Below are positions 16,751-28,338 of a stretch of DNA of 29,358 bases, piece by piece (positions within the stretch are counted from its first letter, which is position 1; every line of letters begins with the position of its first letter). The notes under the pieces were generated by a model. It had not been told where the DNA came from and did no database searches. It was given only the letters and a program-made list of their open reading frames with translations. Location of the stretch: IMG/VR virus record IMGVR_UViG_3300029319_000334, positions 1 through 29,358 of that record; one strand, 5' to 3'. The DNA comes from a virus. The position numbers and the translations under genes are program-made.

Positions 16751-16786
16751 AAAAAGAGCGGCTTTAATCGGTCGCTCTTTTTTTTT
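16751..16786 (+). terminator. Rho-independent terminator after the capsid gene
   Basis: AAAAAGAGCG pairs with CGCTCTTTTT (stem 16751-16760 / 16773-16782, 12-nt loop), and the T run continues to 16786. It is the clearest terminator in the window and would limit read-through after the most expressed gene. Confidence 0.88.
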
Positions 16787-16789
16787 GCC

Positions 16790-16797
16790 TAAATAAA
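16790..16797 (+). promoter_or_regulatory. TAAATAAA motif directly before a start codon
   Basis: CCTAAATAAAATTATG: the motif lies immediately after the capsid terminator, only 3 bp from the ATG at 16801, and there is no ribosome binding site. Either a late promoter giving a leaderless or start-proximal mRNA, or an AT-rich leader. Confidence 0.35.
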
Positions 16798-16800
16798 ATT

Positions 16801-17355
16801 ATGACAATCATTTGGTTCAATGGTCCTTCGGGTGTCGAATTGATGGCGAGCCTGCCACGACAACCTTTTGAGATAGGTTGTAATCTCATACAAAACAACA
16901 GAGATGTGGATGTGGTCTGTGCCTATGACGTAGACACAGTGACTAAGATTGAAATCAAACCAAACACTGAATATTACACCAGAGAAGAAGCCGCACACAG
17001 CAAATGGAACATTATAAATGACCATATTATCAAATCAACAAACTCCGGCCTGTTGGCCTGTTATGTTGCCAAAATTAAAAAACAATTTCCAATCTACATA
17101 TTGGGTTGTGATTGGGGTCTCACAAAGATAAGCATATTTGAAAAAGAATATATGCACACAAAACCGCAAAGGAAGTATTGGCAGGCACATAAAAAATTTA
17201 TTTCAACATTGTTTGATGGTTTGCCTGTGTATGTGGTCAACGATCAACAACCAGATATCAATTTACCTATCATTTCCGTAAAGCAGTTCATATCTGCAAT
17301 TCAAATAAATAACAATAGCAGGAAGGACCTGCAACAAACAAGGAAGGACCTTTAA
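16801..17355 (+). CDS. Rossmann-like MptE/DUF115-type protein, paralogue A (184 aa)
   Basis: Key segments are IIWFNGPSG (4-11), EIGCNLI (about 24-30), VVCAYD (about 38-43), SGLLACYVAK (about 82-91) and YILGCDWG (about 99-106). Order and form (GPS, N, D, S-G-x-LA, GxD) match the DUF115/MptE-like and sialyltransferase-like Rossmann folds, which bind nucleotide-linked substrates. The actual reaction is unknown. A homologue lies on the other strand at 27567-28112. The C-terminus ends with a doubled RKDL (RKDLQQTRKDL), encoded by a duplicated AGGAAGGACCT, the second copy of which also serves as ribosome binding site of the next gene. Confidence 0.72.
   Translation: MTIIWFNGPSGVELMASLPRQPFEIGCNLIQNNRDVDVVCAYDVDTVTKIEIKPNTEYYTREEAAHSKWNIINDHIIKSTNSGLLACYVAKIKKQFPIYILGCDWGLTKISIFEKEYMHTKPQRKYWQAHKKFISTLFDGLPVYVVNDQQPDINLPIISVKQFISAIQINNNSRKDLQQTRKDL
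17304..17311 (+). promoter_or_regulatory. AATAAATAAC motif inside the 3' end of paralogue A
   Basis: AATAAATA followed by ACA, 44 bp before the next gene start. Same ten bases as at 3683 and 26433. Could drive the connector-tail block beginning at 17356. Confidence 0.4.
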
Positions 17356-17817
17356 ATGGCGCAATTTAGCACTGACTCAGATCTTTTAGAGTTTGAGCCC
17401 GATATAAAAAACTACGGTATTCAAGACTTTGAAACTGATCCAAACTTACACGAAAAATCCTACGATGATATCATACGTCTGTTGAACATCAAATGGGCAC
17501 CCACATATGGACTTGGAAGATACGATGCTTCTGTTCTTGGTGCCAGCATCATTGATGTTGATCCAAACAAGATACAGACATCACAGTTCAAGAGAGCGAG
17601 TGTGTATCACGTGTTGGGACATTACATCTATCCGAGATTATCTACATTCGATCCTGCTGGTGATGCCTTCCGAGAAAAAATGAATTATTACGTGAACAAA
17701 TTCAATGAAGAGTTTGATTTCATTCTTCAAGAAGGTGTAAAATATGATGCTGATTCAGATGGCACAATAGCCGACTCTGAAAAGCAAACATATTATCACA
17801 ACAGATTACAGAGATAA
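17356..17817 (+). CDS. Head-tail connector-type protein (153 aa)
   Basis: MAQFSTDSDLLEFEPDI begins like known connector or head-completion proteins of siphoviruses, which pack against the portal. It is mostly helical, with VYHVLGHYIYPRLSTF and FREKMNYYVNKFNEEFDFIL near the C-terminus. The assignment rests on place (between capsid and tail tube genes) and on this pattern. The ribosome binding site AGGAAGGA is in the end of paralogue A. Confidence 0.65.
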   Translation: MAQFSTDSDLLEFEPDIKNYGIQDFETDPNLHEKSYDDIIRLLNIKWAPTYGLGRYDASVLGASIIDVDPNKIQTSQFKRASVYHVLGHYIYPRLSTFDPAGDAFREKMNYYVNKFNEEFDFILQEGVKYDADSDGTIADSEKQTYYHNRLQR

Positions 17818-17823
17818 TGGAAG

Positions 17824-18261
17824 ATGTCAGCAAGAGAAAACATAGCAAAAAATATTGTCCAACAACTTGAGAATATGTCTCCACCTGCCCCAGGCAAGGT
17901 ATCGAGAGAATTCTTTGATGTCACAAAATTAGCGATAACACAATTTCCTGCTATTCTTGTTGTGACTTCAAATGAGACAAGGACAGACATTTCAACAGAT
18001 TTACGAGAAGCAGTTATAGAATATCAATTGAGGTCATATGTGAGAGGCACACAGATAGACACATTGAGAAATGAATTGGTTGAGAACATCGAAGAGACAT
18101 TGGAGGTCAGCAGAGACAGAGACATAAGTCAATCAATCACGAACATCCATAACGTGACAACACAAATAACAAACATTGAAGTGATAGACAGAGAACTGCC
18201 TTTGGGTGAGGTTGTCGTAACCTGTCAAGTCACTTACAGATACGCGAAAGGAACTTTATAA
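17824..18261 (+). CDS. Tail terminator/completion-type protein (145 aa)
   Basis: Alpha-beta protein with an N-terminal helix (ARENIAKNIVQQLENM), a central strand (FPAILVVTSNETRTD), then EAVIEYQLRSYVRG, a helix and two final strands (VEVI-like, GEVVVTCQVTYRY). This topology and place fit tail terminator or minor tail proteins that cap the tail tube. No diagnostic motif exists, so this is inference from context. The stop overlaps the next start (TAATG). Confidence 0.6.
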   Translation: MSARENIAKNIVQQLENMSPPAPGKVSREFFDVTKLAITQFPAILVVTSNETRTDISTDLREAVIEYQLRSYVRGTQIDTLRNELVENIEETLEVSRDRDISQSITNIHNVTTQITNIEVIDRELPLGEVVVTCQVTYRYAKGTL

Positions 18262-18503
18262 TGGCAGTAACTATGTATAAAGGAAAAGATTCTAAGGTTG
18301 TCAATAACCGAGAGGTTAGGCAACATAGAAGAGACGGTTGGACCTATAAACCATCCAAAACGGATCTACAACAAAAAATAACAAGACCGAAGAAGCCAAG
18401 GGCAACACTCAAGGCGACTCCGGCTGTTGAAAAAGTTGTGGAACCAAAAATAAACATCGATCTTCCAGGTCCGGAAGATTTCAACCTAAACATAAAGGAG
18501 TAG
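18261..18503 (+). CDS. Small basic hypothetical protein (80 aa)
   Basis: TAATG-coupled to the upstream gene. The N-terminus has MYKGKDSKVVNNREVRQHRR followed by DGW, a pattern found in small phage proteins that read VxxHxxDGW. The rest is a Lys/Pro-rich linker and an acidic tail. Unknown role between tail completion and tail tube. Confidence 0.6.
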   Translation: MAVTMYKGKDSKVVNNREVRQHRRDGWTYKPSKTDLQQKITRPKKPRATLKATPAVEKVVEPKINIDLPGPEDFNLNIKE

Positions 18504-18507
18504 GAAA

Positions 18508-18933
18508 ATGGCAGTTAATACAGGAACCTATACCGGAGAAGCAGGCGTCGTGAAGTTTTCAGATGACGGTTCAGCCGTTGCGGCTGTGGCCAGTGTGAGA
18601 TCTTTTACGGTGGAGCAATCTATGGACACTTTGGAAGACACAGTAATGTCATCAGATGGTGCGTTCAGAACTTACAAAGGTGGTTTATCAACTTTCTCTG
18701 GAACAATAGATTGTTATCTTAGAGATGATGATGATGCACAAAGATCGTTCTTCACGTCAATAGGAAACAACGCGGCGGCTATCGAGTTATATCCGTCAGG
18801 TGAATCAACTGGTGTAAAACTAACCGGAAACGTTTTGATAACTTCACATTCAATATCGGCTTCGTTCGATTCTATGACGGAAGTTAGCATATCTTTCACC
18901 GGCAGTGGTGCACTAACTCGAACGGATTTATAA
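18508..18933 (+). CDS. Major tail (tube) protein (141 aa)
   Basis: GTYTGEAGVVKFSDDG, VASVRSFTVEQSMDTLEDTV, GLSTFSGTIDCYL and VLITSHSISASFD with the closing VSISFTGSGAL is the usual pattern of siphovirus tail tube proteins, a beta-sandwich that stacks as hexameric rings. AAAGGAG precedes the ATG. Its order before the chaperones and the tape measure supports the call. Confidence 0.82.
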   Translation: MAVNTGTYTGEAGVVKFSDDGSAVAAVASVRSFTVEQSMDTLEDTVMSSDGAFRTYKGGLSTFSGTIDCYLRDDDDAQRSFFTSIGNNAAAIELYPSGESTGVKLTGNVLITSHSISASFDSMTEVSISFTGSGALTRTDL

Positions 18934-18942
18934 TTTTAAATT

Positions 18943-19236
18943 ATGATTTCGATTCAAGTCAAAGGAGTTGAAAAGGCCGGCAGGGCCATATTCAAGAAAT
19001 TGGATGACCTTGTCAGCAAAGTATCCCGAGATGCGTTTGCTGAAGCAAAACGTATCACACCGGTCCGATCTGGTCGAGCCAAAAAATCTTGGAGACTGGA
19101 AAAGAAAGGCAAGTTTAGCACGGAAGTAGTAAACCGTGTTCCATACGCCGCCCGATTGGATGAAGGATACTCTAAAAAAGCGCCACGAGGTATAACTCGG
19201 CCAGCCTCGAAGGCAGTTGCAAAACGTTATAGATAA
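18943..19236 (+). CDS. HK97 gp10-like tail completion protein (97 aa)
   Basis: Contains the typical block AKRITPVRSGRAKKSWR followed by VPYAARLDEGYSKKAPRG and a final PASKAV. HK97 gp10-family proteins are small neck/tail completion proteins. In most siphoviruses this gene precedes the tail tube gene, but here it follows it. No ribosome binding site is evident; the ATG is 9 bp from the previous stop. Confidence 0.78.
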   Translation: MISIQVKGVEKAGRAIFKKLDDLVSKVSRDAFAEAKRITPVRSGRAKKSWRLEKKGKFSTEVVNRVPYAARLDEGYSKKAPRGITRPASKAVAKRYR

Positions 19237-19251
19237 AGGAGATAATAGACA

Positions 19252-19626
19252 ATGAACAAAGCAACAATGATGAGTAAAATCACTAATCACTATCAAACAG
19301 CGATCAGTGATGCAAATATGCACAAGATCCACATCAAAGAATGGGATATGGATATCTATTTTAGAAACACATATTCATTCAAAGATGAGGCGAGAGTAGT
19401 TGAACTACAGAGCCAAGGAAAAGTGGTAGAGGCACTCGTAGAAAGTCTTATTGTGAAAGCGAGAGACAAAGAAGGCAAAAGGATATTCCAGGATGCCGAC
19501 AGAGTCACACTTTTGAATGAGGCTGACCCTGCTGTGATCACCAGAGTATGCACAGCGATTTCAAATGCTAATTTGAGATTAATAGGTGACAAAGCAGTAA
19601 AGGAATCGAATCCAACACAGAGTTAA
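19252..19626 (+). CDS. Tail assembly chaperone (gpG-like, 124 aa)
   Basis: Located between tail tube and tape measure, with the features of first tail chaperones: a beta N-terminus (IHIKEWDMDIYFRNTYSF), DEARVVELQSQGKVVEALVESLIVKARD, an EGKRIF...DRVTLLNEADP block and a helical end. It coats the tape measure before tube assembly. AAAGGAG lies upstream. A second ORF in the -1 frame follows at once, as in lambda G/T. Confidence 0.72.
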   Translation: MNKATMMSKITNHYQTAISDANMHKIHIKEWDMDIYFRNTYSFKDEARVVELQSQGKVVEALVESLIVKARDKEGKRIFQDADRVTLLNEADPAVITRVCTAISNANLRLIGDKAVKESNPTQS

Positions 19627-19637
19627 GACTGCTTTTG

Positions 19638-19781
19638 ATGTTGGCCGATAGGCTCCACAAGAGCCTTGAGGAGATAATGCAGTTGTCAGTGTTGGAGATA
19701 GATCTGTGGTTGGGATACCTAAGGATCGAACAACAAGCCGCCAGCAGGCAAATGAAGAACTTGAAGGGTAGGAAAAAATGA
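19638..19781 (+). CDS. Second tail chaperone ORF (gpT/DUF4035-like, 47 aa or a frameshift extension)
   Basis: The -1 frame relative to the preceding gene is open from 19590 to the TGA at 19779-19781 and encodes LLLMLADRLHKSLEEIMQLS, then VLEIDLWLGYLRIEQQ. This matches the second chaperones of proteobacterial phages (LADRL-x-K-x-x-x-EI ... LWxAYxR). Read alone it starts at ATG 19638. Read as a gpG-gpT fusion it would need a -1 slip between 19590 and 19626, but I see no ideal slippery heptamer. The stop overlaps the tape measure start as ATGA. Confidence 0.7.
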   Translation: MLADRLHKSLEEIMQLSVLEIDLWLGYLRIEQQAASRQMKNLKGRKK

Positions 19782-21802
19782 GTCAACAAATTCTATTAGC
19801 GATCAAGGCACAGGATCGTGAAATTAAAAGACTCACTGGAGAGGTCAATAGATTAAAAGGATCAATAGGTGGTATTGGGCCTATAGCCAAAGTTGCGGCT
19901 GGAGCCTTGGGTGCCATTGGACTTGTTTCACTTGCCAAAAATGCTGTAAACACAGCGGCCAGATTTCAGGATCTACAAACAACTTTAGCATCAGTAACTG
20001 GATCAACCAAGGCAGGTGCAGAAGCATTTGAATTTATAAAAGAATTATCAACTTCAACCCAATTCGGCATTGAAGACCTTTCCAAAGCATTTATAAAATT
20101 AAAAGCGGCTGGCATCGAACCAAATGTTGAACTTCTTACAGTTTTCACAGACACAGCGGCCATAACCACAGACCAAGTCGGATCATTAGAGGCGGTAACA
20201 GACCTGTTTGCAAGAACGGTCCAAGGGGGTCTGGGTTTAGAAGAGATTGAACGATTAGGAGACAGAGGTGTTCCTGTTCTTGATATTCTTAATGAAAAGT
20301 TAGACCTTACAAGGGGTGAAATATCAGAGTTTGGTAAAAGCGCCGAAGGAGCCAAAAAACTTGTTGATGCTTTTGCGGAAGGTATCCAGGAACGATTTGG
20401 CGGAGCAACACAGAAATTATTAGGAAACCTATCAGTTCAATTTTCAAATTTGAACATAGCAATAGACAACGCCAGTTCGGCATTTGGAATGTCTCTGGCA
20501 CCAGCATTGGGTGAGTCTGTTGTAGGACTAACAGAATTTATCGTAAGGAATGAAAAATTAATAGCATCAATAGGTGAAGGTTTAGGAACAGCAATACAAT
20601 TCACTGTGGCAAACATTGATCTGCTCGCTTCTGCATTGGTTGGATTGGGACTTGCAGGAATCATTGTTTTATTTGGGAAATTGGCCCTGGCAATAAAAGG
20701 TGCCGCCCTGCAAATGAACATATTCAACAAGGTAGCAGGCAAGAATCCTTTTGTAAGACTTGCCACTGGTTTGTTAGCAGTAGGTAGTGCAGTAGCGACC
20801 TATGTTACACTGAACAAAGATGCAGAAGAAACACAGGATGATGTCAATGATGCAGTTGACGAGGGAACAAAATCTTACAAAAATTATGAAGATGGCATAA
20901 TACGAGCGGCCAAGGCTCAAAAGAAAGCGGAAGAGCAAGCCAAGAAGAATGCCAAAGCACAAAAAGATTTAGCAAAAGCACATAGAAAAACATTCGACGA
21001 AATAATGAAGTTGAATGAGACAGAATTACAAAAACTTGCGAGACAGCAAAATGAAAAAATGAAAGAAATCAAGGATATGCTTCGAAATAGAAGCGTGTCT
21101 GAAGAAGAGGCGGCAAAAGCAAGGCTTGAGATAGAAAAATTTTATGGTGGCAAGGCCAGAGACATCAGAAACAGAGAAGCACAAGAGGCATTAGAAAAAC
21201 AATTAGAAGCAAGTAGAAAGATTGAAGAGGACAGAAAAGAAAAACTTGAATTATTCAAGCAAGGCAAGTTCAAACAAGGTAGTATTGAAAGAGCAACACA
21301 AGAAGAGATGCTTGACATTGTTATTGCCACAGGATCAAGAACATTAGATATACTTGCAACACAAAACAAAAAATTCTTCCAATTACAGAAAGCAGTCAAG
21401 ATTGCATCTGCTATCCAGAACACATACGAAGGTGCTACCAAAGCCTTTGCACAGGGAGGTTTCCTTGGATTTGTGACATCAGCACTTGTCATTGCGGCAG
21501 GTTTGGCACAGGTTGCACAGATACGGGCACAAACCTATCCAGGTAGAAGAAGAGGTGGTCCTGTTATGGCTAACAGTCCATTCATTGTTGGAGAAGAAGG
21601 AGCAGAGTTATTTGTTCCACAATCATCAGGCACGGTCATTCCGAACGACAGGATGGGAACAGGTGCGGTAACAGTTAATTTTAACATAAGTGCAGTTGAT
21701 AGTTCAGACTTTGACGATCTATTGATGTCCAGACAGGACTTGATCGTCAGCGTCATAAACAGAGCATTAAGAGAAAGGGGGAGAGCGGCTATAACCGCGT
21801 AA
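19778..21802 (+). CDS. Tail tape measure protein (674 aa)
   Basis: Sets tail length. N-terminal helix and hydrophobic Gly/Ala stretch (about 25-60), then a TP901-type tape measure domain (FQDLQTTLASVTGSTKAGAE, FIKELSTSTQFGIEDLSKAF, SLEAVTDLFARTVQGG). Two hydrophobic segments follow (about 284-315 and 328-345) that may cross the membrane during DNA entry. Residues about 360-490 are a charged coiled coil. The end has YPGRRRGGPVMANSPFIVGE followed by EGAELFVPQSSGTVIPN, common at tape measure C-termini. The length suggests a tail of roughly 100 nm, from the known 1.5 angstrom per residue rule. Confidence 0.92.
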   Translation: MSQQILLAIKAQDREIKRLTGEVNRLKGSIGGIGPIAKVAAGALGAIGLVSLAKNAVNTAARFQDLQTTLASVTGSTKAGAEAFEFIKELSTSTQFGIEDLSKAFIKLKAAGIEPNVELLTVFTDTAAITTDQVGSLEAVTDLFARTVQGGLGLEEIERLGDRGVPVLDILNEKLDLTRGEISEFGKSAEGAKKLVDAFAEGIQERFGGATQKLLGNLSVQFSNLNIAIDNASSAFGMSLAPALGESVVGLTEFIVRNEKLIASIGEGLGTAIQFTVANIDLLASALVGLGLAGIIVLFGKLALAIKGAALQMNIFNKVAGKNPFVRLATGLLAVGSAVATYVTLNKDAEETQDDVNDAVDEGTKSYKNYEDGIIRAAKAQKKAEEQAKKNAKAQKDLAKAHRKTFDEIMKLNETELQKLARQQNEKMKEIKDMLRNRSVSEEEAAKARLEIEKFYGGKARDIRNREAQEALEKQLEASRKIEEDRKEKLELFKQGKFKQGSIERATQEEMLDIVIATGSRTLDILATQNKKFFQLQKAVKIASAIQNTYEGATKAFAQGGFLGFVTSALVIAAGLAQVAQIRAQTYPGRRRGGPVMANSPFIVGEEGAELFVPQSSGTVIPNDRMGTGAVTVNFNISAVDSSDFDDLLMSRQDLIVSVINRALRERGRAAITA

Positions 21803-21806
21803 TATT

Positions 21807-22427
21807 ATGAGCGGAACATTTCCAACAGCGGGTTTCACAACCCTCAACTACAACAACAATGTAACGGTGAGGCAGACCGAATCTGTCAATGGCAAAACAC
21901 AGAGATCCAAGACAGGTGGCCAGTATTGGTCATTCACTTTGGAATCACCACCATTGGAGAGAGCGGCATTCAACGCCATATACAGTTTCATTGTGCAACA
22001 GGATGGATCATTTGAATCATTCACGATATCACCTCCAGTTGTTGGTTCAACAGCGGGCACGGCATCAGGTAATTTAGTGACCAAAGAAATGAGCACGGCA
22101 CAGAAACAAAAAGGCAGTAGCACAATTAAATTTGGCAACAAGGCGGATGGAAGTCCAGTCACAGGCACATTGAAGGTTGGCGACTTCTTCAAATTGGCCA
22201 GCCACGACAAGGTTTATATGATTGTTGGTTCAGACATAACTTTTGATGGATCAACCTCTCCAGAGGTCAGCATATATCCACCATTGGTGCAGACCATAGA
22301 CAATAGTGATGACGTCACATACAATAGTGTGCCATTCAAGGTGCATTTCACCAGTGACAGGCAAAGTTATACGGTGGATCCAAGTCTGCTATACACATAT
22401 CAAATAGAAGTAAGAGAGCAACTATAA
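21807..22427 (+). CDS. Distal tail-type protein (206 aa)
   Basis: Follows the tape measure, where distal tail proteins are encoded. It contains GGQYWSFTLESPPLERAAFN, FIVQQDGSFESFTISPP and a C-terminal YTVDPSLLYTYQIEVREQL strand, a pattern seen in phage hub proteins of DUF2460-like or related kinds. It would link tail tube and tip. No ribosome binding site is visible, and the stop overlaps the next ATG (TAATG). Confidence 0.65.
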   Translation: MSGTFPTAGFTTLNYNNNVTVRQTESVNGKTQRSKTGGQYWSFTLESPPLERAAFNAIYSFIVQQDGSFESFTISPPVVGSTAGTASGNLVTKEMSTAQKQKGSSTIKFGNKADGSPVTGTLKVGDFFKLASHDKVYMIVGSDITFDGSTSPEVSIYPPLVQTIDNSDDVTYNSVPFKVHFTSDRQSYTVDPSLLYTYQIEVREQL

Positions 22428-23032
22428 TGCCCAGAGATATTGCCAGTGCTACGGTTACCAAACTTGAAGCACAAACGGTTCACATCGTCGAGTTGATACA
22501 ACTGCATCTGCTGGACAGCAATGGCAATGACCGGGTTTTACAACTCAATACCGGTCCAACGGATTTGATTGTGACCACACCAACTTCAGGCACAACATTA
22601 TATACGGCACAAGGCCAATTCCTGAACTTTGGATCACTGAAAGAAACTGCTGACTTGAGTGTGCCAAGTTTTGAGATTTTATTCACAGCAGTGGACACAA
22701 CAACATTGGCGGCACTTGTGGCATCGGACAACAGCGGTAAGGCCATAAACGGCAGACGTGCAGTTTTCTACAGGGTGGTTTTGGACAGCAGTTATAATTT
22801 TTCCAACGACGATGTTTATATGATTTTTGATGGAACCATTGATGGTTTCAGCATCACACAGGATGACAACACAGCAACCTTAAGTTTGACCTGCACATCA
22901 AACTTCGCAAAATTTAGTATGATAAATGGAGTAAAAACAAATATGGGAAGCCAACAGACAAGATTTCCGGATGATATGGGTATGGAGTTCGCTTCTTCAA
23001 TAAGACAAGATATAAGATGGGGACAACCGTAA
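22427..23032 (+). CDS. Tail hub protein, DUF2163-like (201 aa)
   Basis: HIVELIQLHLLDSNGN, LYTAQGQFLNFGSLKETADL, a strand FYRVVLD and a DVYMIFDGTIDGFSITQDD segment resemble tail hub proteins of gene transfer agents and alphaproteobacterial phages (DUF2163 group). The assignment is by order (tape measure, distal tail, hub, tail tip). TAATG junctions tie it to both neighbours. Confidence 0.65.
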   Translation: MPRDIASATVTKLEAQTVHIVELIQLHLLDSNGNDRVLQLNTGPTDLIVTTPTSGTTLYTAQGQFLNFGSLKETADLSVPSFEILFTAVDTTTLAALVASDNSGKAINGRRAVFYRVVLDSSYNFSNDDVYMIFDGTIDGFSITQDDNTATLSLTCTSNFAKFSMINGVKTNMGSQQTRFPDDMGMEFASSIRQDIRWGQP

Positions 23033-23484
23033 TGTATGTGAGAAAACTTAACATAAAAGATTTCAATAAATTTTATGAATTGCTTTTGAAAGCATTCACA
23101 GAAAAAGGTTTCCTTGATACAACTTTTGACAGAGAAATGGTAAACATAGAAGCCAAAAGATGCATCGTGGCCGCTGATCATTATGTGATTGGTCTGTTCG
23201 TTGATGATGTGTTGCGAGGTTTCGCTATCCTTATGTTTGGACAGAACGTCTACAACAGAGATGAATATGTGCAGGTTGATATGATTCACACTGACATTGA
23301 CTACAGGCACGACATACATCTACAAACAATTTTTTCAAACATCAAACAAATTGCACTTGAACACAATGCCAAGAGGGTGATTTGCAATGATAATGCTTTG
23401 AGTTTGGACAAAGAGACCAAAAATGTGATCTGGTTAAAAAATTTATTCTTCCAGACTGACAAAGTTTGGGAAGCGGAGATATAA
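23032..23484 (+). CDS. GNAT-like acyltransferase in the tail-tip module (150 aa)
   Basis: I start at ATG 23032 (TAATG with the previous gene), not at 23017. The fold pattern is GNAT-like: an N-terminal strand-helix (VRKLNIKDFNKFYELLLKAF), CIVAADHYVIGLFVDDVLRG, FAILMFG, a strand YVQVDMIHTDIDYR at the motif A position, then a long helix and AKRVICND. The acetyl-CoA loop (Q/RxxGxG/A) is not well conserved (DYRHDIHLQTIF), so activity is uncertain. In many siphoviruses an NlpC/P60 peptidase occupies this place. Confidence 0.6.
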   Translation: MYVRKLNIKDFNKFYELLLKAFTEKGFLDTTFDREMVNIEAKRCIVAADHYVIGLFVDDVLRGFAILMFGQNVYNRDEYVQVDMIHTDIDYRHDIHLQTIFSNIKQIALEHNAKRVICNDNALSLDKETKNVIWLKNLFFQTDKVWEAEI

Positions 23485-25574
23485 TGGGACTTTTAAGAAG
23501 AATCAAGAGAGCGATAAAAAAAGTTGTCAGCGGTGTAGCCAAGGTTGCAAGTTTTTTGATTGGTCCAGTATCAACTCCATATCAAACCACGCAATCGATA
23601 TCACAGACCAGTGCGTCAACAGGTCCTGAAAGACTTGATGGAACTTTGGTCAATTTCCAAGGTGGATCTATTCCTGTGCCTGTGGTTTATGGTTTCAGGA
23701 AAATTGGTGGCACTCGTGTTTTCGTGTCAACGAATGGCACGGACAACAAATATCTTTTTGTTGCCATTGTTTTTGCAGAAGGACAATGTGTAGGATTGAG
23801 TGAGGATGGTGGCTTTGGTGAGGACCATAGATCTCCGCTCTACATAGATGATACCAACGTGCAACTGACAAGTTATTCACACGGTGTGGTGGCAGAACCA
23901 ACAAAAGGACCTTACAAGGACAGATTAAAAGTGCAATTCTTTGACGGCAGGGAAATACAAACAAGTGCCTCAACTAACAATGGTGTTTTTTCAAATCTCG
24001 ATGGTTCAGGTGGTGCTCCAGGTTGGACAGACAGGCACAAACTGGCAGGATTGTGTTATTATGCTATGAGATTCGAATGGAAAAAAATTACAACACAAGA
24101 AGATGCAAACAACAATCCATACAAAGGCATTCCACAGATCAAAGTGAGATTATCGGGCAAAATGATTTTTGACCCGTTGGAGATACAATCAAATCACGGA
24201 AGGGCGATGGATGGCACTGATCCGTTGAGGTCTACACAAAGGGCATCTTACTTGAGGGACATCTATCCACAAGGAATATCAAATAATGTTACATTCACAA
24301 ACAACTTTAGATCAAACGGAAGATATATGGGTGATGATCCTGTGGCAGTTTTACTGGATTATCTAAGAAACCCCGACTACGGTAAAGGCATAGATGATGA
24401 CAGGATAGATTTTGATAGTTTCAAAGATGTATGTCTCAAACTATCAAGAACAGACATCAGTAGATTGTTCACTTGTCCAGTCTACATTGACACCAGTCAA
24501 ACTATGATGAACAACGTGAAAATTATTTTGCAATCATTCCGAGGATTCCTGCCCTACGCAAATGGCAAATTCAAATGTGTAATGGAAGCACCGGAAGATC
24601 AAGGTTTGGTAGGGGGTGATGAACTTACCCGTTTCAGTGGCACAATGGCAAACATCGTGACAAAGAAAACATTCAATGATGACAACATCGTTGGTGGTAT
24701 AACAATTGAAAGACCTGACAAGGCATCAAGATATAATCGTGTGAGGATAACTTACACAGACGGTATAAAACACGGAGCAACTGCTGAAGCAATCTTTCCG
24801 CCGGACACAACAAGTGCAGACTATGACGGATTATTGTCAACAGACAATGGAGAAAAATTGGAAGGCAGTTTCACCATACCCTGGTGCACATCAGAAAATA
24901 GAGCAAAACTTTTTGCACAATTATTGTTGCGTAGATCAAGGAACAACAAGGTCATAACATTTGCAACGAATCTTTCAGCAAGTGATCTCATACCAACTGA
25001 TTTGATAACCATACAAAATGATGCTTTTGGAATCGATGGTCCTTTCAGGATCCAAGAAATGACAATCGGACAGGATGGACTGATTGTTATTACTGCCGTC
25101 CAGCACGAACCATCGATATATGTGCAGGATTTAAACGTGTTCACACAACAACAGACCGATCCTGTATTGAATCTACCAGATCCAAATCTTGTGCAACCAC
25201 CAAGTGGTCTCACTGCTGACAGCAGTCAGGCACAGGCATTGTCGGATGGCACAAGGCGGATAAAGATTTCATTCACGGCCAGTCCGGATCCTTTCTTGGA
25301 GGATCACCACATACAGATAAAGAAATCCAGTGAACCTTTCTTCACCACCATAGCACAGACAGAGGACACAGAAGTTTTCTATGGTCCTGTTGCGGTGGGC
25401 GACAAGTTCGACATAAGGGTATTCGCAAGGAACGAGATAGGAAGAAGCAGTGATAAAATTAAAATTACAGCACACACGATCGCGAACACATACACACCAG
25501 CCAGTGGAAGTGCGACAACGGTAACAGGTAATTCAGTGTCCGCCAGCATAGGGACAGCGGAGTTGGGAGCATAA
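23484..25574 (+). CDS. Tail tip / central fibre protein, J-like (696 aa)
   Basis: ATG at 23484 overlaps the previous stop (TAATG). The N-terminus is a basic amphipathic helix (LLRRIKRAIKKVVSGVAKVA). Then comes the conserved tail tip core GGSIPVPVVYGFRKIGG, followed by KYLFVAIVFAEGQCVG, VAVLLDYLRNPDYGKGID and a phage-tail_3-like region (MMNNVKIILQSFRGFLPYAN). The C-terminal 130 residues form a fibronectin type III domain (PPSGLTADS, FDIRVFARNEIGRSS). Host contact and tail closure are expected functions. The stop overlaps the next start (TAATG). Confidence 0.88.
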   Translation: MGLLRRIKRAIKKVVSGVAKVASFLIGPVSTPYQTTQSISQTSASTGPERLDGTLVNFQGGSIPVPVVYGFRKIGGTRVFVSTNGTDNKYLFVAIVFAEGQCVGLSEDGGFGEDHRSPLYIDDTNVQLTSYSHGVVAEPTKGPYKDRLKVQFFDGREIQTSASTNNGVFSNLDGSGGAPGWTDRHKLAGLCYYAMRFEWKKITTQEDANNNPYKGIPQIKVRLSGKMIFDPLEIQSNHGRAMDGTDPLRSTQRASYLRDIYPQGISNNVTFTNNFRSNGRYMGDDPVAVLLDYLRNPDYGKGIDDDRIDFDSFKDVCLKLSRTDISRLFTCPVYIDTSQTMMNNVKIILQSFRGFLPYANGKFKCVMEAPEDQGLVGGDELTRFSGTMANIVTKKTFNDDNIVGGITIERPDKASRYNRVRITYTDGIKHGATAEAIFPPDTTSADYDGLLSTDNGEKLEGSFTIPWCTSENRAKLFAQLLLRRSRNNKVITFATNLSASDLIPTDLITIQNDAFGIDGPFRIQEMTIGQDGLIVITAVQHEPSIYVQDLNVFTQQQTDPVLNLPDPNLVQPPSGLTADSSQAQALSDGTRRIKISFTASPDPFLEDHHIQIKKSSEPFFTTIAQTEDTEVFYGPVAVGDKFDIRVFARNEIGRSSDKIKITAHTIANTYTPASGSATTVTGNSVSASIGTAELGA

Positions 25575-26437
25575 TGGCAAAGACAGGATTTTACGATAGT
25601 TCACAGGAGTTATATCTACCCAAGGACACACTAACTTGGGATGATCTAAACACGTCTCCATACGCAACCTGGGACAATTGGACCAGTTGGTATCAAAATT
25701 TATCGGCTTCAACAACGGTTGAATTCACTTCAGACATCATAGACTTTGGTTCCAGTAGATCCATTGTGCCTTTCGTAACAATATTCACTAAATTGGATGG
25801 TGCAACAGGATCAGCAAGTTTCAGCAGTGACAAACCTGCTATAACCATAGAAGGCAGTGACAATAGTGATATGAGTAGTGCAAGTAGTGTGACATTGACG
25901 AGGACAAGTTCACCCAACTTCACTTCATTTGGGGCAAAGAGATATTACAGGATCACTGTCAACATAAATTCAGGCACAAATGCGGCACCACAGGGCATTT
26001 CCGGTATAGACATAAATTTGAGTGCAGACACCATAGCAGAAGAGATAGAAAACGTCAACACAACCACATACGATGATGGTTCCAGTGTGACAAGGACGAT
26101 TCCAACGCGACAGCAATACACAGCAATCAGTTATGTGGGAGTGACGCCAACATCAACCATCACTGACACCAATGCCACTGGCACGAGTGCCACAGGCAAC
26201 TATGTGCAACTGGACTATGTGGCTGAAGGATACTTCACGGAAAGTGAGGCCAGTATTACAACCAGCAACATCACGATTGTGCCAATGATACAATTGGTAT
26301 CAACGGGCACACAAGAATTCACGATAAGATTATTCAAACCCAACAGCGGAGACGAGACCGATTGCCAGATACGGGCATTGGTAAGAGGATTACCATTGGT
26401 GTCACAAGACACAAACGGAAATATTGTGCAAAAATAA
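25574..26437 (+). CDS. Tail fibre/tip accessory protein (287 aa)
   Basis: The N-terminus TWDDLNTSPYATWDNWTSWY resembles the Trp/Asp-rich N-terminus of the 298-aa repeat protein at 8724 (YTWDDFGLVDRSWDDWF), suggesting a shared docking peptide (inference). The rest is Ser/Thr-rich beta structure with three likely beta-sandwich domains. The TAATG junction with the tail tip gene and its role as last member of that block suggest that it decorates the tip. Confidence 0.68.
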   Translation: MAKTGFYDSSQELYLPKDTLTWDDLNTSPYATWDNWTSWYQNLSASTTVEFTSDIIDFGSSRSIVPFVTIFTKLDGATGSASFSSDKPAITIEGSDNSDMSSASSVTLTRTSSPNFTSFGAKRYYRITVNINSGTNAAPQGISGIDINLSADTIAEEIENVNTTTYDDGSSVTRTIPTRQQYTAISYVGVTPTSTITDTNATGTSATGNYVQLDYVAEGYFTESEASITTSNITIVPMIQLVSTGTQEFTIRLFKPNSGDETDCQIRALVRGLPLVSQDTNGNIVQK

Positions 26438-26440
26438 ATA
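26433..26440 (+). promoter_or_regulatory. AATAAATAAC late-promoter-like motif
   Basis: AATAAATA followed by ACA overlaps the stop codon of the upstream gene, as at 3683. An AAGGAG site and the ATG at 26462 follow. Confidence 0.45.
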
Positions 26441-26461
26441 ACATAAAGAAGGAGAAACAAG

Positions 26462-26896
26462 ATGGCTTGGCCAGCAAACGCAAACAACATATCAACCACA
26501 CACTTAGATTCAGGTAGTGATAATCCTGCATCCAGTCGTAGCGACCTTAAGGCGGCACTGGACGAGATAACGAATTTAATTAACGGAAGGAACGAGGCAT
26601 CAGGTGTGGCCGGGCTCGACGCATCATCAAAGATATCAAACACACAATTGCCTGACACCATCATAAGTTCTTCTTCAACTGACTTGACACTGACACCCAA
26701 CACAGGAACCGTCAACATCAATTCAGTGATACAAATGAATCCGCAATCAAGGTCGGCTCTGTATTCGAGATCAGATCTTGCAGATGGTATGATCGCAATG
26801 GCGTCAGACGGAGATTCTACAGTGGACACACCAGTTTATTACGCCGGGTCCGTATGGCGATATTTTTCCGATAACTCCGAAGTTCCAAGCACTTAA
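26462..26896 (+). CDS. Tail-fibre-type protein (144 aa)
   Basis: The N-terminal STTHLDSGSDNPASSRSDLK is homologous to residues about 10-28 of the 337-aa fibre protein at 6401. A short TDLTLTPNTGTVNI segment follows the fibre motif of the 891-aa protein. The end, DGMIAMASDGDSTVDTPVYY, then AGSVWRYFSDN, is a common C-terminal cap in phage fibres. Good AAGGAG ribosome binding site. It closes the structural block. Confidence 0.78.
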   Translation: MAWPANANNISTTHLDSGSDNPASSRSDLKAALDEITNLINGRNEASGVAGLDASSKISNTQLPDTIISSSSTDLTLTPNTGTVNINSVIQMNPQSRSALYSRSDLADGMIAMASDGDSTVDTPVYYAGSVWRYFSDNSEVPST

Positions 26897-26904
26897 TTTT
26901 TTTC

Positions 26905-26933
26905 TTGACAAATTTGTAAGGTTGTGTTTAAAT
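26905..26933 (+). promoter_or_regulatory. Sigma-70-type promoter of the structured intergenic region
   Basis: TTGACA 26905-26910 and TTAAAT 26928-26933 with a 17-bp spacer. No convincing ORF follows within 200 bp, so a small RNA or a leader is the likely product. Confidence 0.5.
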
Positions 26934-26983
26934 ACTGCAACGACATATTCATTTTAGGTGGCCCTATTTTATATGTTGTTTTT

Positions 26984-27049
26984 GAAAGGCACGTTTAGGT
27001 TTGTTTGATTCGTCAAAAAAAAAAAACTTAATTAAGCAACGTGCCTTTC
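26984..27049. repeat. 12-bp perfect inverted repeat around an A12 tract
   Basis: GAAAGGCACGTT at 26984-26995 is the exact reverse complement of AACGTGCCTTTC at 27038-27049. The 42-nt loop holds twelve A residues (27015-27026) and the palindrome CTTAATTAAG. It may be the core of a small RNA transcribed from the promoter at 26905, or a two-way terminator. Confidence 0.65.
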
Positions 27050-27077
27050 GCTTATGATATCCAATTTTACATCTAAA

Positions 27078-27085
27078 AATAAATA
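27078..27085 (+). promoter_or_regulatory. AATAAATA motif and nearby TATAAT in a non-coding region
   Basis: AATAAATA at 27078-27085, with TATAAT at 27103-27108 but no fitting -35. They lie just before the second inverted repeat. They could start a short transcript covering it. Confidence 0.3.
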
Positions 27086-27117
27086 TTTTTTGTATTATCG
27101 CATATAATACATTCCCC

Positions 27118-27168
27118 GGGTGCAAACTTTCTGACATTGCCATTAGTATAACTAAAGGGTTTGCACCC
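27118..27168. repeat. 10-bp inverted repeat, probable RNA hairpin
   Basis: GGGTGCAAAC (27118-27127) pairs with GTTTGCACCC (27159-27168). CTTT/AAAG inside can extend it, and the loop contains a small TTAGT/ACTAA hairpin. No T tract follows on either strand. Confidence 0.6.
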
Positions 27169-27241
27169 CCACTATCACACACACCCAAAACACTTTTACC
27201 ACGCATATACAGGCGTCTGTGTGCGTTTAAACATAAAAGAT

Positions 27242-27271
27242 TTGACATTCTTACCCGAGATCATATATATT
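27242..27271 (+). promoter_or_regulatory. Possible promoter before a short basic ORF
   Basis: TTGACA 27242-27247 and TATATT 27266-27271 (spacer 18) or TATATA 27264-27269 (spacer 16). Downstream lies an ATG at 27286 for a 33-residue ORF, in an alternative frame to a basic reading frame that ends at 27421. Confidence 0.4.
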
Positions 27272-27285
27272 ACTGAATATAGGCA

Positions 27286-27387
27286 ATGCAGGCAAACATC
27301 AGACACAAACAAGCGGAGCACTCACAAGAAGAACGCTTTGGTCAGAACGAGGAAACGGCCTGTGCCAAAACCAGTCCAGGTATTTGA
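27286..27387 (+). CDS. Possible short ORF (33 aa), uncertain
   Basis: ATG at 27286 opens a short polar ORF (MQANIRHKQAEHSQEERFGQ ...). The competing frame, which ends at 27421 with a Lys/Arg/Pro-rich stretch (RTRKRPVPKPVQVFET), looks at least as protein-like but has only TTG or GTG starts. No ribosome binding site decides between them. Either could be a leader peptide or neither may be translated. Confidence 0.25.
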   Translation: MQANIRHKQAEHSQEERFGQNEETACAKTSPGI

Positions 27388-27490
27388 GACGACACCTCTC
27401 AATGTAAAAAAAGCAGGATGAACGGGTTAGTATGAACCCCCTGGAAGGAAAGGTCCTTGGGACTCGTGAAAGACAACTCACATAAAGTCA

Positions 27491-27508
27491 CCACCCGGAA
27501 ACGGGTGG
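27491..27508. ncRNA. GNRA-capped hairpin in a structured region
   Basis: CCACCCG-GAAA-CGGGTGG is a perfect 7-bp stem with a GAAA tetraloop, a stable RNA fold. It lies in a 140-bp ORF-poor segment (27422-27566) that also holds the terminator hairpin at 27540-27563. Confidence 0.4.
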
Positions 27509-27529
27509 AATCTGATCTGCCAATCTACA

Positions 27530-27563
27530 TAAAGAAAACACAAACAGGCGACAGCCTGTTTGT
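27530..27563 (-). terminator. Rho-independent terminator of the minus-strand genes
   Basis: ACAAACAGGC (27540-27549) and GCCTGTTTGT (27554-27563) form a perfect 10-bp stem with a 4-nt loop. On the minus strand it is followed by TGTTTTCTTT. It begins 4 bp after the stop of the minus-strand gene. Confidence 0.82.
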
Positions 27564-27566
27564 AGA

Positions 27567-28112
27567 CTAACGAAGTTGGTCTTGATACCACTCCCGGAAT
27601 TGGGCCACGGTGATGTGCGGCACTGACACGTCCCTGGTCTCATCCGCCACCACGTGTATGTCCAGTCGTTGGGCGTAATGTTCCATCAATCTCTTCTGTG
27701 AGTTGGTGTGTTTGTGTGGCGAACGTCCACAGCCGTAGTCATAGATGGTCTTGGTGTTGATGCCCCAGTCACAACCCAGTATCCACAACCTCCCAAAACC
27801 CAAATGGTCAGCCAGTGCCACCGCCAGTGTGCCACTCTGTTCCGGCCTGCGATACGTGGGCATCCTGACCTCCCGCCATCCCCTGGGCCAATCCGTGAAG
27901 CCAGCGGACCTGGTGCTCCATCTCTCCACACCCTCCGTCGCGGGCACCGTGTTGACCACCCGTGCGTCATAGGCCACCACGTGATCCACCCGACGATCCT
28001 GCAGGATGTAGTTGCAACCTATCTCCGTGAACCTTCGTGGCAGGTCCAACAGGCTGTTCCTGCTGGGACCATTGAACCATATGATGCAGTTATCTTGATC
28101 CGGCACCCGCAC
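27567..28112 (-). CDS. Rossmann-like MptE/DUF115-type protein, paralogue B (181 aa)
   Basis: Has the same segment order as paralogue A at 16801: IIWFNGPSR, EIGCNYI, VVAYDARVV, SGTLAVALADHLG and WILGCDWGINTK, with a similar C-terminal HITVAQF. The insert between AYD and SG is longer and basic. The GPS/N/D/GxD pattern fits nucleotide-sugar or pterin-type Rossmann enzymes of the DUF115/MptE group; the substrate is unknown. GTG start at 28112, with a second GTG at 28106. GC content is far above that of paralogue A (G/C at most third positions), so it did not arise by a recent local duplication. A good terminator follows, and the gene overlaps the upstream one by 23 bp. Confidence 0.78.
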   Translation of the reverse strand: MRVPDQDNCIIWFNGPSRNSLLDLPRRFTEIGCNYILQDRRVDHVVAYDARVVNTVPATEGVERWSTRSAGFTDWPRGWREVRMPTYRRPEQSGTLAVALADHLGFGRLWILGCDWGINTKTIYDYGCGRSPHKHTNSQKRLMEHYAQRLDIHVVADETRDVSVPHITVAQFREWYQDQLR

Positions 28113-28308
28113 CTATCTGGCGACCACCCTCCGGCGTCAACCTCCACACTCGCCTATCCCGATTGCCTCGCAACCGGAACGGACAACTGCGATAGCCTGG
28201 CTGGCAGGGGCAGGTGCTATGGACACCCCGCATTGATCGTGTCCGCTCGTTGCGGCACAGCCATTCGCCGAACCTGCCCACCACTCTGTCAAACCTCGTT
28301 GCTTTCAT
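28090..28308 (-). CDS. Small Arg/Cys-rich protein (72 aa)
   Basis: I choose the ATG at 28308 because it follows a divergent intergenic region. The longer reading from 28416 would run over the start of the plus-strand gene. Contains RFGEWLCRNERT, a Cys cluster (STCPCQPGYRSCPF) and RRVWRLTPEGGRQ, the last like a winged-helix or zinc-ribbon end. Four or five Cys could bind a metal (inference). GC-rich like its operon partner paralogue B, with which it overlaps. Confidence 0.5.
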   Translation of the reverse strand: MKATRFDRVVGRFGEWLCRNERTRSMRGVHSTCPCQPGYRSCPFRLRGNRDRRVWRLTPEGGRQIGAGAGSR

Positions 28309-28338
28309 ACGCAGATATTTAATGTTTGGTAAAACACC

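Follow-up and report, generated by a model that had tools for sequence, protein, structure and literature searches.

A compact phage protein family with a predicted Maf/GT42-like fold, candidate glycosyltransferases at two late-region junctions in uncultured aquatic phages

The 29,358-base IMG/VR record IMGVR_UViG_3300029319_000334, analysed over its whole length and called the window below, carries two related genes on opposite strands. Copy A (16801-17355, plus strand) encodes 184 amino acids and lies between the capsid gene and the head-tail adaptor gene and shares their strand, a position referred to here as slot A. Copy B (27567-28112, minus strand) has a GTG start, encodes 181 amino acids and occupies slot B, on the opposite strand just past the tail-tip genes. 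Both products are predicted to be compact proteins of the Maf/GT42 fold. They share 33% identity over 166 residues (BLASTP, 90.9 bits, E 4e-28), and we therefore regard their likeness as homology. An earlier note, made from the sequence alone, had located both reading frames and described shared motifs in a common order; both observations hold, and most of the motifs show little or no variation among 25 family members. The different base composition of the two genes was likewise confirmed: GC content is 37.8% in copy A, 57.7% in copy B and about 41% in the remaining window. By codon position, the GC content of copy B is 57/46/71%, as in a genuine GC-rich gene.

The same note had credited copy A with a terminator and a promoter-like motif of its own. 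The motif is present: CTAAATA (16789-16795, plus strand), a promoter -10-like element placed 5 nt before the ATG, differs by one mismatch from a family-wide TTAAATA. The terminator upstream of copy A (16751-16782, plus strand; 13-pair stem and T run) belongs instead to the capsid gene, because an equivalent hairpin is kept 3' of that gene in two relatives, L037 and L046, that have no copy A; it shields copy A from transcription coming from upstream. Copy B does have its own terminator, as claimed, at the end of a minus-strand island (27564-27539; 11-pair stem and T-rich tail). The first ORF of this island (MKATRFDRVV..., 72 amino acids, 28308-28090, minus strand) overlaps the start of copy B; no relative of it was found, and it may not be a gene. 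A TTAAATA element (28316-28322, minus strand), located 7 nt before the ATG at 28308, precedes this ORF and not copy B itself. At least one such match arises in 37 of 100 shuffles of the window, and the single slot-B match is not significant in the window taken alone.

Across the family, 17 of 29 genes have an exact TTAAATA no more than 25 nt before the start, versus 8 of 437 other genes; with one mismatch allowed, the counts are 23 of 29 versus 58 of 437. The 29 genes include close relatives and are not independent. In family genes the element stands nearly always 4-7 nt before the ATG, a spacing that is rare among non-family ORFs; it is seen in both slots and both orientations, and is absent from the clade L027/L029/L031/L034 and a few other members. 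Because this -10-like element sits so near the ATG, family genes probably have their own promoter and a leaderless message. Among features of moron cassettes, we see presence or absence at a given site and the TTAAATA element, and an own terminator for copy B and not for copy A. The window also contains two hairpins in tandem (17318-17332 and 17340-17352), each with AGGA in its loop; the second contains the ribosome binding site of the adaptor gene. Their stems vary in relatives but can still form there, also in genomes that lack copy A, and the hairpins resemble CsrA/RsmA-type sites.

Scans of IMG/VR identified 44 contigs with relatives; family members are single-domain proteins of 160-184 amino acids. 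A tblastn search with five family members as queries gave no meaningful match among 50,697 phage records, and two scans of bacterial and archaeal genomes recovered no relative. The dN/dS ratio is 0.08-0.21 across nine pairs of relatives, and the protein is therefore under purifying selection. Gene neighbourhoods define the two slots: slot B is filled in the window and in nine other contigs (L003, L036-L038, L041 and L044-L047), and at slot A the gap between capsid and adaptor genes measures about 600-660 bp with a family gene and 113 bp without one (L037, L046). In L041 this gap holds an HNH-like ORF in place of the family gene. HNH endonuclease-like ORFs, running against the capsid strand in or beside slot A, occur in several relatives (L018 2671-3027, L039 9502-10077, L041 19342-19827, and 18451-18870 in L064, the phage DSL-LC06), which marks the junction as an insertion site.

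The near-complete relatives G005, G006, G010, G011 and G012 have a single copy each, with one slot filled; in G011 the gene spans the contig ends and gives two partial matches. Two family copies were seen in the window, where both slots are occupied, and in L032, where genes of the two slot types adjoin (992-1528 and 1568-2077), the slot-B-type one being inverted. The arrangement in L032 suggests movement between slots. In a phylogenetic tree, most slot-A genes stand apart from the slot-B genes, and one slot-A group (L039/L040/L042/L043) falls among the latter; a single clade of slot-B genes is not rejected (p 0.16). A tree constrained to unite the two window copies is worse by 45.6 log-likelihood units (AU p 0.00015), and a recent duplication of one into the other is rejected. 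The earlier proposal that copy B was gained separately thus stands in so far as it did not arise from copy A by recent duplication, but copy B is not a one-off, as slot B is filled in nine other contigs. Nor does base composition reveal a single recent gain, a reading that we dropped because the GC content of each slot-B gene exceeds that of its remaining locus, by 2 to 16 points. Slot-A genes have a GC content close to that of their own locus.

Searched on their own, the two window proteins have no Pfam match, and NCBIfam returned nothing sensible. The kinship with DUF115/MptE proposed in the earlier note is borne out in part: 15 of 25 members match the MptE-like profile (PF01973), in its C-terminal part, with a best E of 0.0013, but all remain below the Pfam cut-off of 34.6 bits, the members listed reaching at most 17.3 bits. 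Two members matched the CST-I profile below its cut-off. Agreement between sequence profiles and the predicted fold is thus weak. The profile phrog_4603, annotated 'alpha-2,3-sialyltransferase' (178 amino acids) and lacking a curated cut-off, matched 21 of 25 members when E values up to 1 were allowed, with a best value of 1.1e-6 and only 0.061 for copy B.

A profile of slot-B proteins searched against PDB sequences had CstII or CstI as all of its best eight matches (E 0.04-0.1). It aligns NGPS..LP..CN to CstII residues 9-31 and SG..A..L....I...G.D to residues 132-154, such that the CstII donor-pocket residues N9-S12, N31, S132-G133 and D154 all have aligned counterparts that are invariant or nearly so in the family. 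A comparison with CstII as the single reference, its sequence checked against the PDB, covers NGPS..CN31 and S132-G133..D154. There are 17 invariant residues across the 25 members, most of them in the putative donor pocket. The general base of GT42 enzymes is His188 of CstII (PMC4202792). As no histidine is invariant in the 25 members, this catalytic base is not conserved; the residue after an invariant K125 is Y, H, F or M, with an uncertain residue mapping past the GxD motif.

AlphaFold2 models built on the 25 window and IMG/VR sequences reached a pLDDT of 93.7 for copy A and 90.7 for copy B. Foldseek gave no match against the PDB at E 0.001 or below for either copy. When the same candidate chains were re-ranked with VIA-align, the Maf glycosyltransferase 5mu5 came first for both copies (Z 12.2, 159 residues aligned at 3.7 Å for copy A; Z 12.9, 165 residues at 3.9 Å for copy B). 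It was followed by CstI/CstII (Z 10.4-11.8 for both copies), by the 6-hydroxymethylpterin diphosphokinase MptE (8sd5; Z 10.1 for copy A and 11.0 for copy B), by SteA, titled a cell division regulator (Z about 10), and by thiamin pyrophosphokinases (Z up to 9.2 and 8.6). The fold suggested in the earlier note is thus well matched: Maf, of the pfam01973 family, CstI/CstII and MptE provide the best solved matches of both predicted structures, and a Maf/GT42/MptE fold is very probable for both copies on the basis of these models. The same note had found the compact size unusual, a point that we do not retain: viral structure models of 167-224 amino acids match the predicted fold at E 3e-6 to 7e-4, and DSL-LC06 has a 185-amino-acid protein annotated as a sialyltransferase.

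Each known system resembles the family in part. In Maf enzymes, which attach nonulosonic acids to flagellin by O-glycosylation, the central pfam01973 domain resembles CstII (PMC11339370). Our family shares the fold of this central domain but is a phage-encoded single domain without the N- and C-terminal domains of Maf. With CstI/CstII it shares the GT-A variant fold and co-linear NGPS, CN, SG and GxD motifs, although its members are shorter and have no conserved counterpart of His188. MptE has the same core fold, but fewer residues align (127-135) and no pterin pathway was seen. Both phrog_4603 and the DSL-LC06 'alpha-2,3/8-sialyltransferase' agree with the family in size and motif order, and the DSL-LC06 protein aligns to it across 100 columns (hhalign P 3e-4, probability 39%). 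The DSL-LC06 gene is located elsewhere in its genome, however, has no BLAST match to the family and does not itself match phrog_4603; a scan for relatives of its product found none.

From the models and the conserved pocket, glycosyltransferase activity appears somewhat more likely than not for the family. In the mechanism that we propose, the protein would bind a host-made nucleotide-activated sugar in a donor pocket formed by NGxS, ExGxN, SG and GCDW and would then pass it to an acceptor; the sugar is plausibly a nonulosonic acid linked to CMP, as it is for the closest structural relatives. The conserved pocket and the Maf/GT42 relatives are the reason for proposing a nucleotide-sugar donor. 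The donor is assumed to be host-made because no sugar-nucleotide synthesis family occurs among the 25 families listed for the relatives scanned; those listed include FkbM methyltransferases, GNAT and HlyC-like acyltransferases and HNH nucleases. The gene would travel as a self-contained accessory cassette, with TTAAATA before the start of most members and thus probably a leaderless message, and would drop into one of two late-region junctions, either beside the capsid gene or, on the opposite strand, after the tail genes. Taken as a whole, this reading of copies A and B as compact single-domain glycosyltransferases, carried by mobile self-promoted cassettes and using a host-made nucleotide sugar, is one on which we are evenly divided. 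The homology, the predicted fold, the conserved pocket, the purifying selection, the two slots and the enrichment of the motif come directly from the analysis; catalysis, donor, acceptor, promoter function and timing are all deduced indirectly.

As to the acceptor, a host surface glycan, modified for receptor masking or superinfection exclusion, seems slightly more likely than a virion protein. That the transferase glycosylates a capsid, adaptor or tail protein, as presumed of phage glycosyltransferases for mycobacteriophage Che8-like capsids, the two copies serving two virion targets, is suggested by the location of both slots among virion genes; moreover, a passage of PMC11256854 citing Freeman et al. 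2023 mentions glycans covalently attached to capsid proteins of cluster F1 phages. Yet the acceptor cannot be read from a location next to the capsid gene, since different phages use different slots and location is not bound to one target, and some relatives with homologous capsid genes have no family gene; we consider this alternative rather unlikely.

The fold group also contains pyrophosphokinases and SteA, so that glycosyl transfer does not follow from the fold by itself. A transferase of nucleotide or pyrophosphate groups with a small molecule, a nucleotide or a DNA precursor as its substrate, in the manner of MptE or thiamin pyrophosphokinase, would agree with the core common to these enzymes, with the MptE-like family being the Pfam family that most members touch, and with the missing GT42 histidine. 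It is nonetheless improbable, given that pyrophosphokinase matches cover 109-136 residues versus about 150-170 for Maf and CstI/II, and that sequence matches to solved proteins favour CstII. Least probable of all is a descendant without catalytic activity whose sole function is to bind a nucleotide or sugar, for instance as a regulator or decoy: SteA and the missing histidine would fit, but the 17 invariant residues, most of them in the putative pocket, and the low dN/dS argue against it.

In a bolder form of the transferase reading, which we think unlikely, the family would be a new branch of the Maf/GT42 superfamily, made of His-less minimal transferases with a chemistry or acceptor yet to be described; their cassettes, leaderless and self-promoted, would shuttle between two fixed late-region junctions in uncultured aquatic phages. 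What the analysis defines is a phage family of transferase-like proteins of about 180 amino acids, missed by family-profile annotation, together with its genomic placement and probable expression mode. It offers a minimal system for asking how a protein of the GT42/Maf fold can function when the known catalytic histidine is missing and, if active, would give relatives of abundant marine phages a way to alter host surface or virion glycans.

The window virus is an aquatic phage, as yet uncultured, with distant kinship to known SAR11 viruses. Its terminase large subunit is 45-48% identical, and its capsid protein 44-49% identical, to the counterparts in Pelagibacter phages HTVC111P, HTVC202P, HTVC112P and HTVC026P and in DSL-LC06, whose genome was assembled from lake metagenomes. 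In all five the family gene is missing from the capsid-adaptor junction, which contains one or two short hypothetical genes in the four HTVC isolates and an HNH endonuclease in DSL-LC06. A further window protein (559-1002) has helix-turn-helix-like units that repeat, GKTIQEWAKELNVPIG occurring twice, and matches to sigma-70 region 4. An acetyltransferase-like gene lies within the tail module (23017-23484); in HTVC111P, HTVC026P and HTVC112P a comparable place is occupied by an annotated lysine/RTX-toxin-type acyltransferase. In HTVC111P (L063 26997-27878) and HTVC112P, an annotated glycosyl transferase directly follows the tail fibre gene.
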